From contig LOER01000037.1 in the NCBI GenBank assembly GCA_001515945.1, forward strand, positions 1 to 47,602: a stretch of 47,602 nucleotides of DNA, in the 5' to 3' direction. Position 1 is the stretch's first letter; every line of letters begins with the position of its first letter. Origin of the DNA: Desulfitibacter sp. BRH_c19 (GTDB taxonomy: Bacteria; Bacillota; DSM-16504; Desulfitibacterales; Desulfitibacteraceae). Both the position numbers and the translations under genes were made by a program. This document shows, piece after piece, positions 1 through 39,260 of this stretch. The notes beneath the pieces were generated by a model. That model searched no databases. It worked only from the letters and a program-made list of their open reading frames with translations, and had not been told where the DNA came from.

Positions 1-168
1 AGTGCAGAGCCGCCAGTAGTTCTAGCATTGTGATTTTTGCAATGCCTAGAAATACCAGTGCAGAGCCGCCAGTAGTTCTAGCATTGTGATTTTTGCAATG
101 CCTAGAAATACCAGTGCAGAGCCGCCAGTAGTTCTAGCATTGTGATTTTTGCAATGCGTAGAAATACC
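1..168 (+). repeat. Three tandem copies of a 56-bp hairpin unit (dispersed repeat family)
   Basis: Three head-to-tail units start at 1, 57 and 113 with an exact 56-base period. Units 1 and 2 are identical; unit 3 differs by one base (cctaga becomes cgtaga). Each can fold into a hairpin: TTCTA-GCATTG pairs with CAATGC-TAGAA across a 9-base loop, with one bulged base. The bases after unit 3 (169-205) match the 3' flank of the long copy at 38006-38295 (agaagataggagtcttgg), so this is one end of a larger element. The window starts inside the array, so more units may lie upstream. No coding sequence is seen here. Confidence 0.93.
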
Positions 169-175
169 AGTGCAA

Positions 176-326
176 GGCCAGAAGATAGGAGTCTTGGAGT
201 AAAACTAGCCAATTTGCACTATCATTGAGCATAATTTTCATAGGTAAATAGTATTAATTCAACTAAAGCTTCCGCCTGAACAATAGCTTTGTCTTAAACT
301 AAGTTTTGTTTCATGAGCATAGCAAA
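176..326. other. Intergenic stretch downstream of parB: degenerate repeat flank
   Basis: About 150 bases between the tandem repeat and parS. The first 30 bases match the 3' flank of the dispersed repeat. Later pieces (aagcttccgc, aagttttgttt) resemble the flanks of the copies near 19860-20030 and 39150-39180, so this is probably decayed repeat sequence. No gene or RNA is recognised. Confidence 0.45.
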
Positions 327-19548: not shown

Positions 19549-19599
19549 TTTACAAAACCAAATATCTTAAAAACCCTATGAAAAAGAAAAGTAACTAAA

Positions 19600-19816
19600 T
19601 GCATTTTTATTTTTATATAGAGAGTTGGTGTGTGGTGCAAACCAATAGAATGCTTTGGCGAATCCACTTCGGAGGGTGCTGGGAAGGAAATATCATAACC
19701 AGTTTACGGGTTGAACCGTTATAGCTTTAGAGATAACCTTTATTAGATAAGGTTAATTAAGGGTGGTACCGTGAGAGCTCTCGCCCCTGTTATTGGGGAT
19801 GAGGGCTTTTTTATAC
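19600..19816 (+). promoter_or_regulatory. T-box riboswitch controlling serS
   Basis: A tRNA-sensing leader. Stem I elements run 19620-19700, with the AGAG..GGTG..CAAACCAATAGAA landmarks. The likely specifier codon is UCC (19663-19665, after GAA), which reads Ser. The conserved T-box GGGTGGTACCG is at 19761-19771. The competing terminator pairs AGCTCTC..CCCC with GGGG..GAGGGCT and is followed by six Ts (ending about 19812). Uncharged tRNA-Ser is expected to stabilise the antiterminator and allow serS transcription. The matching tRNA-Ser(GGA) is encoded at 32436-32527. Confidence 0.93.
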
Positions 19817-19903
19817 TATCGGAAAGTATAAGTTCAAACAAGGTAGATAGTATTCACAAAGACTAAGGCTTCCGCTACGTCTAAGGACTTGGCGCACTAT
19901 AGT

Positions 19904-21329
<1,426 letters not shown>

Positions 21330-31930: not shown

Positions 31931-32239
31931 GATAAACAGGATTCTTGACTTCAGGTGGAGTTTCCCACAGGATTAGTTCAACTACAGTTCAGGGAAAAAC
32001 ATCTGAACTAAGTTTCACTGAATTACTCCATCTAAAGGTTATAGAGCGAAACTTCATTTAATCAGCAGATTAAATGTTTAGCTGAGCTAATCCTTTAGGG
32101 GAAACCGTTATCCAGGGACATAGCACCGCTTGTCTCCCACTTACGACCGTAGTTCTAGCATTGTGTTTTAGCAATGCGTAGAAATACTAGTGCAAGGCTA
32201 GAAGATGGGAGTCTTAGCGGTGATAGTCATCGGATAAAA
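31931..32239 (+). repeat. Long copy A of the dispersed structured repeat
   Basis: About 309 bases, starting right after the helicase stop with GATAAACAGGATTCTT and ending GTCATCGGATAAAA; both ends match copy B (38006-38295). Shared blocks in order: TCAGGTGGAGT / ACTCCATCT arms (here with about 50 extra bases between them, which carry their own AGTTCAG/CTGAACT hairpin); GAGCGAAACTT; a stem CATTTAATC / GATTAAATG; GCTAATCCTTTAGGG; CCGTTATCCAGGGAC; then CTCCCACTT and GATGGGAGTCTT flanking the hairpin unit (32146-32193). No open reading frame. Confidence 0.9.
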
Positions 32240-35858: not shown

Positions 35859-36767
35859 ATGATAGATTCTCATTTAAAACAGAAGATTAAAAATCAATTT
35901 CATAAGTTATCTGCAACCCATAAGCTGCTAGCGGAATACTTGCTTGAAAACTATGAAGAGGCCGCATTTTTAACGGCTTCACGTTTAGGTACTATAGTAG
36001 GCACTAGTGAGTCTACTGTTATTAGATTTGCATCCACCATAGGATATCAAGGATATCCTGAATTACAAGAAGCCATGCAGGATATGGTTCGACATAAGCT
36101 AAGCACCACAACTCGACTAAGAGAAACAAGTGATTCGGCAAAGGATACCCAGGTTTTGCCTGAGCTATTTCTTGGTGATATGGAAAATCTGAAGAAAACA
36201 TTTCAGGAAATTTCTGTAGAGGCATTTGAAGAAACGGTCGAGGAAATAAGTGATGCTTCAACAATTTATATCCTTGGACTGAGGAGTGCTCATTGTTTGG
36301 CGTTATTTCTAGGTTTTTATCTTGAGATGATAGGGAAAAAGGTAAAGGTAGTCCCGTCAGGAGTAAGTAGTATATATGAGCAACTGTCAGTAGTCAGAAA
36401 TACTGATTTAGTCATTGGAATAAGCTTTCCAAGATACACCCGACAAACAATTGATGGTGTCGAGTATGCTAAAAAGCTTGGTGCAAAGGTAGTTGTTATT
36501 ACTGATACTGTAGTATCTCCATTAGCGCAATGGGCAGATATTACTCTAACGAGTCAAAGTAACATAGGTTCCTTTATCGAGTCCTTTGCGGCTCCACTAA
36601 GTTTAATAAATGCCCTGGTAACTGCAGTAGGCCGAAAACAAAGAGACCAGACATTAGACATACTTGAAAAACAAGAGGTTATCTGGGAGAGATGTAATAT
36701 TTTTTATGTTTCAGAAAAAGATAGTGTAAAAAAGAAACAACAAAAGGAAAAACTAAATGAGAGGTGA
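35859..36767 (+). CDS. RpiR/MurR-family transcriptional regulator (HTH + SIS)
   Basis: 302 aa. The N-terminal HTH_6 domain is clear (ASRLGTIVGTSESTVIRFASTIGYQGYPEL, about 40-69). A SIS (sugar isomerase) domain follows at about 125-265 (IYILGLRSAHCLA, VIGISFPRYTRQT, VVVITDT). SIS domains in this family usually sense phosphosugars. Here the stop codon lies just before the aminomutase start, and the two share one transcript. So it probably controls amino-acid or osmolyte metabolism; the effector is unknown. The C-terminus is lysine-rich (KKKQQKEKLNER). Confidence 0.92.
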   Translation: MIDSHLKQKIKNQFHKLSATHKLLAEYLLENYEEAAFLTASRLGTIVGTSESTVIRFASTIGYQGYPELQEAMQDMVRHKLSTTTRLRETSDSAKDTQVLPELFLGDMENLKKTFQEISVEAFEETVEEISDASTIYILGLRSAHCLALFLGFYLEMIGKKVKVVPSGVSSIYEQLSVVRNTDLVIGISFPRYTRQTIDGVEYAKKLGAKVVVITDTVVSPLAQWADITLTSQSNIGSFIESFAAPLSLINALVTAVGRKQRDQTLDILEKQEVIWERCNIFYVSEKDSVKKKQQKEKLNER

Positions 36768-36772
36768 TTTTT

Positions 36773-38023
36773 GTGAAAGAAAAAGACAAGAGGGAGCAAG
36801 CTATAGAAAGGGCTAGTGAACTTGAAGAACGCATAAAGCCTTATTTGGATGCCAAAGACAAAATTACTACAGGATTTGACTTACAGGAACGGTCCCAAAA
36901 AATGAAAGCAAAAATCTTAGAATATTTCAATGCTACTGAAGAGCAGTGGAATGATTGGCATTGGCAGATAAAGAACAGAATAGGTGATGTTGATAAACTT
37001 GTAAAATTTGTTGAAATTGATGATGAGCAAAAGCAAGTTATTAAACAAATAGAAAAAGACTATAGATGGTCAATATCGCCATATTATCTAAGCATATTAG
37101 ATCCAAACGACCCTGCTTGCCCCATATGGATGCAAGCAATACCTAGTGCTCATGAATTAAATGATCCATATGGGAAAGAAGATCCCATGGCAGAAGAATA
37201 CACATCTCCAGCTCCACGTATTACCAGGAGATATCCTGATAGACTGATAATTAATGTTACTAATCAATGTGCGATGTTTTGCAGACACTGCCAAAGAAGA
37301 AGAAATATTGGAGAGACTGATGCACCTGCTCCACAAAGTGATATTCAAGCTGCTATAGATTACATTAGAGCTAATCCAGAGATAAGGGATGTACTTATTA
37401 CAGGGGGGGACCCATTAACCTTATCTGATGAAAACCTGGAATGGATCATATCAGAAATTAGAAGTATTCCTACAGTAGAAATAATTCGTCTTGGAAGCAG
37501 AACTTTGGTTACATGTCCACAAAGAGTAACTCAGGAATTATGCGATATGCTAGAAAAGTATCACCCGATATATATTAATACCCATTTTAATCACCCTAAA
37601 GAGGTTACCCCTGAAGCTTTAAAGGCTACTAGAAGGTTAGCTAAAGCAGGAATTCCCTTAGGAAATCAAGCAGTCTTGTTAAAAGGTATTAATAACGATC
37701 CTCATGTTATGAAAAAACTCAACCATGAGTTGCTAAAAATTCATGTTAAACCCTACTATATTTTCCATGCAAAATCAGTTAAAGGTACTACTCATTTTGT
37801 AACTCGAGTTGAGGATGGATTGGATATAATGGAGCAACTAAGAGGTTATACTTCAGGGTTGGCAATCCCCTGGTATATCATTAATGCACCTGAAGGTCAT
37901 GGAAAGACTCCTATAATCCCTCAGTATTTAATACAACACGGCAAGGATCATGTTTTAATAAGAAACTGGGAAGGCAAGACTTATAAATACCCAAATGGCT
38001 ATCCCGATAAACAGGATTCTTAA
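36773..38023 (+). CDS. eam: Radical SAM aminomutase, predicted glutamate 2,3-aminomutase
   Basis: 416 aa from GTG at 36773 (GGTGA six bases upstream). It is a radical SAM PLP enzyme of the KamA family with the cluster motif C166-x3-C170-x2-C173. The PLP lysine is K378 in EGHGK. The two aspartates that bind the side-chain amine in lysine 2,3-aminomutase (D293, D330) align with K334 (FHAK) and N371 (IINAP). Lys and Asn at these positions mark glutamate 2,3-aminomutase in the published comparison. So it should make beta-glutamate, a known osmolyte. The last codons (DKQDS) and the stop lie inside a dispersed repeat. Confidence 0.88.
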   Translation: MKEKDKREQAIERASELEERIKPYLDAKDKITTGFDLQERSQKMKAKILEYFNATEEQWNDWHWQIKNRIGDVDKLVKFVEIDDEQKQVIKQIEKDYRWSISPYYLSILDPNDPACPIWMQAIPSAHELNDPYGKEDPMAEEYTSPAPRITRRYPDRLIINVTNQCAMFCRHCQRRRNIGETDAPAPQSDIQAAIDYIRANPEIRDVLITGGDPLTLSDENLEWIISEIRSIPTVEIIRLGSRTLVTCPQRVTQELCDMLEKYHPIYINTHFNHPKEVTPEALKATRRLAKAGIPLGNQAVLLKGINNDPHVMKKLNHELLKIHVKPYYIFHAKSVKGTTHFVTRVEDGLDIMEQLRGYTSGLAIPWYIINAPEGHGKTPIIPQYLIQHGKDHVLIRNWEGKTYKYPNGYPDKQDS

Positions 38024-38295
38024 CTCAGGTGGAGTTTTGACTCCATCTGAGTTTTATAGAGCGAAACTTGCCAACTTGTTTGGCGTAGCTAAGCTAATCC
38101 TTTAGGGAAAACCGTTATCCAGGGACGTAGCGCCACTTATCTCCCACTTGCGCCAGTAGTTCTAGCATTGTATCTTTTGCAATGCGTAGAAATACTAGTG
38201 CAAAGCTAGAAGATAGGAGTCTTGGAGTGAAACTTGTCAACTTGTTGACATAGCTGAACCCATGCAAGGCTAGTGGCGGTAGTCATCGGATAAAA
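38006..38295 (+). repeat. Long copy B of the dispersed structured repeat
   Basis: About 290 bases, from GATAAACAGGATTCTT inside the eam 3' end to GTCATCGGATAAAA. The first hairpin is intact here: ACTCAGGTGGAGT / ACTCCATCTGAGT with a TTTG loop, followed by TTTTAT, so it can also end eam transcription. Next come GAGCGAAACTT, stem GCCAA / TTGGC, GCTAATCCTTTAGGG, CCGTTATCCAGGGAC, CTCCCACTT, and the hairpin unit (38151-38202). A second GAGTGAAACTT with the perfect stem GTCAAC/GTTGAC follows (38224-38250). Confidence 0.9.
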
Positions 38296-39006: not shown

Positions 39007-39033
39007 ATTATATTACTATTAAGACTTGACGCA

Positions 39034-39146
39034 CTAAAGAACGGGCATTCCCAAGTACTGTAAAGACTGATTGCTAGAAGTACTGGCGCACTAAAGTACT
39101 GGTATTTCTACGCATTGCAAAAGACACAATGCTAGAACTACTGGCG
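39034..39146 (-). repeat. Hairpin repeat, one full unit and one degenerate unit
   Basis: The full unit (39098-39146) is nearly identical to those at 19904-20008 and in the same orientation. A decayed second unit lies at about 39034-39089 (ends GCTAGAAGTACTGGCGCA). A spacing of about 59 bases shows it was once a tandem pair like the others. Confidence 0.85.
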
Positions 39147-39260
39147 CATGCTAAGGCTTGTTTTCATATGACATAATCAACTAGCATAGCAAGGACAGCG
39201 AATAGGTGGCATACCACTAGGCTGGTCTGGCAATGTTTGTGAAATAAATAACAAAGCTTA

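Follow-up and report, generated by a model that had tools for sequence, protein, structure and literature searches.

A 56-bp hairpin is an internal, tandem-amplified module of two families of small mobile elements in Desulfitibacter sp. BRH_c19

The window, that is, the whole stretch of 47,602 nucleotides around dnaA analyzed here, is contig C37 (LOER01000037.1) of the 48-contig, 3.85-Mb assembly of Desulfitibacter sp. BRH_c19. It contains eight good copies and one decayed copy of a 56-bp hairpin unit carrying GTAG in both arms, far over chance expectation. Tandem Repeats Finder reported a single array at 1-174 (period exactly 56, 3.1 copies, 99% match), and BLAST matched the unit at 1-62, 57-118, 113-174, 19904-19962, 19957-20008, 32149-32194, 38151-38202, and 39098-39146, with a decayed piece at 39072-39088. 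Seven sites in the window gave the unit a best ungapped score of 46-50 out of 50, compared to at most 30 out of 50 in 20 first-order Markov shuffles of the window. The unit was thus found at every place named in the earlier note: three times in tandem at 1-168, twice at 19904-20008, once with a decayed copy at 39034-39146, and as two singles. Both orientations occur, as that note stated, and the copies lie essentially outside genes. The copies are embedded in larger elements at 1-323, 19815-20028, 31934-32235, 38009-38291, and approximately 39026-39167. These belong to two families, termed here the core element, which can carry the optional modules I1, I2, and I3, and the E element. The features are as follows.

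1-10, forward strand: tail of one additional unit, at the contig start
11-66, 67-122, and 123-178, forward strand: three full 56-bp units, the array lying within 1-178
179-217, forward strand: descending arm of a core element, then the start of module I3, following the array (by homology to 38207-38244)
218-314, forward strand: E element without a unit, nested in module I3 (TTTGC / ACTATC..TTTCAT / GAGCATAGC)
19569-19814, forward strand: serS T-box leader (Rfam match 19569-19791) and terminator T-run
19815-20028, forward strand: E element, ACTATC..GTTTTGTTTTAT, with two units; it separates the T-box terminator from serS (20055)
19895-19952, reverse strand: 58-bp unit, the second in this E element, with the E-type tail ACTATAGTG
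19953-20008, reverse strand: 56-bp unit in the same E element
31934-32235, forward strand: core element AAACAGG..ATCGGAT at AT^AA, containing one unit besides modules I1 and I2
32144-32198, forward strand: 55-nt unit variant, CGACCGTAG..GTGCAAGGC, in the apical loop of this core element
38009-38291, forward strand: core element holding modules I2 and I3 and a single unit
38151-38206, forward strand: 56-bp unit in the apical loop of this core element
39026-39167, forward strand: decayed fragment of an E-type element ending ..CTTGTTTTCAT; of its two units, one is good and the other decayed
about 39038-39088, reverse strand: decayed unit in this fragment
about 39089-39146, reverse strand: good unit in this fragment

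Since bases 1-10 close a further unit, the start of the contig falls within the array, and the three copies there are a minimum. At 36764-38023 lies an ORF of the lysine 2,3-aminomutase (KamA-like) family, whose last codons and stop are the first 15 nt of the core element at 38009. The Pfam LAM_C match to this ORF spans just positions 1-60 of 127, and therefore its C-terminus may be truncated.

A covariance model of the unit identified 87 assembled units in the 3.85-Mb genome. Nine of these, counting the decayed one, are in the window, where the density is approximately one per 5 kb compared to one per 44 kb genome-wide, a several-fold enrichment. Presence throughout the genome, as the earlier note supposed, was therefore borne out, but its extrapolation from the window to a very large number was several-fold too high; the number is at least 87 and not many hundreds. 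The five host elements in the 47.6 kb around dnaA likewise contrast with 51 unit runs in 3.85 Mb; a concentration of host elements near the origin is possible, although the window was a selected one. Further contigs with a start or an end at or within a unit are C5, C10, C22, C27, C34, and C47, and because several contigs, C37 among them, end inside arrays, the unit counts are lower bounds. Judging from unit variant and host context, the end of C10 and the start of C5, as well as the end of C47 and the start of C37, could each be the halves of one array.

The flanks of 51 unit runs, comprising 84 units, were compared. Thirty-two runs lie in a core element (one of them decayed and assigned by eye), 18 belong to E elements, and the remaining one is in a divergent type-2 core. 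Not one of the 51 classified runs was a free-standing insertion in bare DNA, and the picture of an element scattered on its own was not sustained. The 56-bp hairpin is an internal, tandem-amplified module of two small mobile element families and not an independent element. The divergent type-2 core, seen at L035 and L056, ends in CAGTTAA and carries the unit intact or decayed. Outside the genus of the window, the unit was found in G113 among the 398 genomes of the phylum searched. An exact unit pattern had matches in Gracilibacter sp. BRH_c7a, Desulfitobacteriaceae STF2_130, Bacillota STCSWMC_137, and a bin labelled Clostridium thermobutyricum, the remaining hits that were read being in unrelated sequence; viral contigs had no match to the unit or core pattern.

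Tandem amplification with an exact 56-base period proved real and recurs at many sites of the source genome. Within single-variant arrays, to which the figure is confined because trimming differences depress the mixed-array and overall within- and between-array means, the units are 98.0-100% identical, and other arrays consist of other variants; the C27 array also has a few short or altered units. The near identity of units inside single-variant arrays indicates that arrays grow locally, and some dimers combining different variants indicate that exchange between elements also occurs. Units within arrays are arranged head-to-tail and do not alternate. In G113, a member of another family with a closed genome in one contig of 3,314,304 bases, E arrays reach at least five units with a period of 56-57 bp, and a sister MAG has a unit array with a 49-bp period. 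Recurrence in the source genome, the sister MAG, and the closed genome argues that the arrays are not assembly errors.

The core element is approximately 137 nt without inserts and adopts a two-domain fold with subterminal hairpins at both ends. It begins with AAACAGG or AAAGTGAAAC and ends with ATCGGAY; more generally, copies start MAA or TAA and finish GGAY. The unit sits in the apical loop of the central hairpin, between CTCCCAC and GTGGGAG. Core elements without a unit (L052, L055) have the clean junction CTCCCACTTG/TAGAAG, that is, CACTTG^TAGAAG, and in those with a unit the sequence CGCC..AAAGC is placed between CACTTG and TAGAAG. Otherwise similar elements hold zero, one, two, three, or more units, and in the genus of the window the loop holds from none to at least ten. 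Of the optional modules, I1 is found in the left hairpin loop, I2 between the two domains, and I3 in the descending arm, and the outer stems stay intact despite loop insertions. Core copies at L267, L268, and L269 have clean internal hairpin deletions, such as GTTATCC/ATCGGATAAA.

A covariance model built from eight cores, with the unit removed by hand from one, matched 40 of 398 genomes of the phylum and 32 of 266 genera, often with many copies per genome. In an alignment of the best copies of 30 genomes, one per genome, which represent 18 families by anonymous labels, 94.3% of the core pair cells were paired, and 31 of 40 pairs had changed on both sides. The covariation score was 0.451, compared to 0.164 in shuffled and at most 0.097 in slid controls; fitting the alignment to the model favours structure, and the gap to both controls is still large. 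The core fold is conserved across many anaerobic bacteria with very strong compensatory change. Rfam 15 covariance models gave no match over any element in the window or in 20 core-bearing loci, and no description was found in the literature on such elements in Clostridia, on MITEs, on PATEs, or on terminator targeting. By the databases and literature searched, the core and E families are apparently undescribed.

Genuine core copies are inserted, with nearly no exceptions, at AT^AA, the left flank being AT and the right AA(A); the search with this flank pattern also caught unrelated stretches, which were discounted by eye. For five core insertions in G014, the joined flanks were sought in two congeners, and four of the five were missing from at least one. 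Two empty sites were exact (CATCTCAT^AAATTCC and AGTTAAAT^AAAAATAAG), a third, CCCAT^ATTAAATAG, had one difference, and at the fourth the junction bases had diverged. One of the insertions was filled in G098 and empty in G131. These empty orthologous sites in sister species demonstrate that the core is mobile. None of them revealed a constant target duplication, and copies ending GGAC that keep AT on the left argue against a 2-bp AT duplication without fully excluding it. In two Syntrophomonas species no empty sites were found, all six core insertions being filled in both, and core movement there must consequently be episodic or slow. In G014 the core interrupts a tnpB gene at GATAAA^TGG, the frame being whole without the element and reading GATAAATGG, and in G000 another copy lies inside a tnpB. 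The idea that the core is the right end of tnpB was rejected, since both cases are insertions at different positions. Additional coding insertions, sought by means of joined flanks, yielded no clear case. The core flanks in G098 and G131 (both at many places) and in G134 hold other high-copy repeats of approximately 70-160 bp.

The E element has the ends ACTATC...TTTTAT. The 17 distinct left ends come from G000, G002, and a Desulfitobacteriaceae MAG. In every one of them, E starts immediately after an intrinsic terminator's T-run, the terminator hairpin having been judged by eye; the background for TTTT within 14 nt is 0.108. TTRY precedes 16 of the 17. In the window, the T-run of the serS T-box terminator was the insertion target of the E element at 19815-20028, and because that terminator belongs to the serS leader, the E element would be part of the serS leader mRNA upon T-box read-through. 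The unit occupies one place in E, in the opposite orientation relative to E's own ends, and at L141 and L178 it is found at another place and in the other orientation. Nesting of E in module I3, as at 218-314, also occurs at L051 and L181; at L051 the insertion is at CTTGY^TGGC without duplication; for E this is the one nested empty site, and its flank has a T/C difference. Subterminal hairpins of E were read by eye from the sequence.

Several described systems resemble these elements in part. In Streptococcus pneumoniae and S. suis, the BOX elements are, like the elements here, short, intergenic, and modular, and number about 100 per genome (PMC3049150). They share with the elements here the combination of end modules with an internal stem-loop module, boxB, which varies in tandem number and barely pairs with the rest (PMC3049150), and both are mobile but slow. 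One BOX makes a composite RNA with T-box riboswitches (PMC3049150), and an E element here follows the serS T-box. BOX elements, however, have terminal inverted repeats and target duplications, neither of which is seen at the core ends and empty sites, and membership in BOX fails on that account. No sequence kinship with BOX was seen, and, unlike BOX, one module here serves two element families, several other modules nest, and presence is phylum-wide. PATEs derived from IS200/IS605 lack terminal inverted repeats and target duplication, have a fixed target of 4-5 nt and subterminal hairpins, and depend on a transposase in trans (PMC7290912). The core similarly has no terminal inverted repeats or convincing duplication (for E, this likeness concerns only the nested L051 site), the targets are short and fixed (AT^AA(A) for the core, 3' of TTRY in 16 of 17 for E), and subterminal hairpins occur at both ends, computed for the core and read by eye for E. 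In contrast to PATEs, conservation of the fold extends over the entire element, the core target includes both sides of the insertion, and no parent IS with core or E ends was found among the Y1 loci read. The BrickBuilt MITE of Porphyromonas gingivalis also has a leader, a tandem minisatellite, and a tail within an intergenic MITE, but its repeat is 23 nt without spacers in 19 copies, its ends carry small inverted repeats, and it is reported from one species (PMC4596501). REP/BIME sequences are likewise high-copy extragenic palindromes with some tandem clusters, and Y1 transposases are present in the genome here; REPs are 20-40 bp and tied to RAYT, whereas the 56-bp hairpin forms a module within a larger element (PMC3733652, PMC2817692).

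The reading that best fits the data, and that we consider probable, is of non-autonomous elements that are modular in the manner of BOX, insert in the manner of IS200/IS605, and contain a stem-loop able to expand. In this reading both mobile families are short, encode no protein, and are conserved in structure, and the 56-bp hairpin is their internal stem-loop module. The core inserts at AT^AA and E 3' of TTRY, right after intrinsic terminators, and both are most likely copied in trans by an enzyme of the IS200/IS605 (HUH/Y1) type, whose transposases insert single-stranded DNA. A Y1 transposase is the best guess because of the lack of terminal inverted repeats and of convincing duplication, the short fixed target, and the subterminal hairpins. 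The unit resides in the apical loop of the core central hairpin or in a stem-loop of E, and because this position leaves the conserved outer stems undisturbed, it can be absent, single, or tandem. Tandem change by slippage at hairpin DNA is well established, and arrays here may gain and lose units in place, through replication slippage or through unequal exchange where the DNA forms hairpins. Other loops take up additional hairpin modules. The anatomy, the conserved fold, the insertion site, the empty sites, the position of every classified unit run within a host element, and the near identity of units in single-variant arrays are direct observations; the type of enzyme, the step of slippage, and the lack of any host function are assigned by inference.

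Y1 genes occur in 25 of 41 relatives; G009 has core matches, yet no Y1 match. None of the Y1 loci read in G000, G001, G002, and G018 bears core, E, or unit ends, and no autonomous core or E copy was found among these loci and the truncated copies read. RAYT-like and IS200-type genes were rejected as parents because their flanks lack core and E ends, and truncated core copies were rejected as autonomous elements, being mostly internal hairpin deletions. G000 encodes four RAYT-like Y1 ORFs of approximately 253-294 aa (L097-L100) and G018 has six Y1 matches (L101-L105); several of these genes are flanked by AAGGGGACRG-type inverted repeats unrelated to core and E.

The conserved core fold spans the whole element, exceeding what IS200/IS605 ends require. 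The core might primarily be a functional structured RNA (regulatory, guide, or processing) that spread, with the unit as an elaborated apical stem. Compensatory change over the whole 137 nt in 18 families and the preservation of outer stems around loop insertions fit such an RNA, but the many copies per genome at changing, species-variable sites, the two copies within tnpB genes, the frequent internal deletions, the lack of a constant gene neighbour in the loci read, and the lack of an Rfam relative make it unlikely. There is also a small chance that the core is an undescribed mobile structured nucleic acid, recognised through its whole fold, in RNA or single-stranded DNA form, by an enzyme inserting it at AT^AA, the loops serving as docking sites for hairpin modules such as the 56-bp unit.

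That the unit is a REP-like palindrome moved by RAYT, with BIME-like arrays, appears quite improbable: the source genome has its four RAYT-like genes, both unit arms carry GTAG, and REPs likewise form tandem groups (PMC3733652), but the RAYT-like genes are not flanked by the 56-bp unit or by core or E copies, the unit is always within larger elements, and the head-to-tail order differs from alternation. A MITE of the BOX type, having short terminal repeats and target duplication and moved by a DDE transposase, would account for the modularity of ends plus an internal tandem module (PMC3049150); with ends, ATAAACAGG and ATCGGATAAA, that are not inverted repeats, and no constant duplication at empty sites, we regard it as very improbable. 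Several contigs do end within arrays, as might be expected of assembly artefacts or sequencing slippage, but such an origin is scarcely credible given same-period arrays in the closed genome of another family, arrays in the sister MAG, and array-specific variants.

Thus, of the overall reading in the earlier note, tandem amplification stood, and the free-standing element and very large copy number did not. The repeats are mobile, modular, and non-autonomous; their fold is conserved to an unusual degree, and a hairpin module that can expand is common to both families. They represent a widespread, apparently undescribed, structure-conserved mobile family in Clostridia-like anaerobes, for which an organism with a closed genome is available for work. 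The arrays account for several contig breaks. With one hairpin common to two element families, module exchange, tandem expansion, and terminator-adjacent insertion can be tested by sequence comparison, and E elements join mRNA leaders, as at serS.
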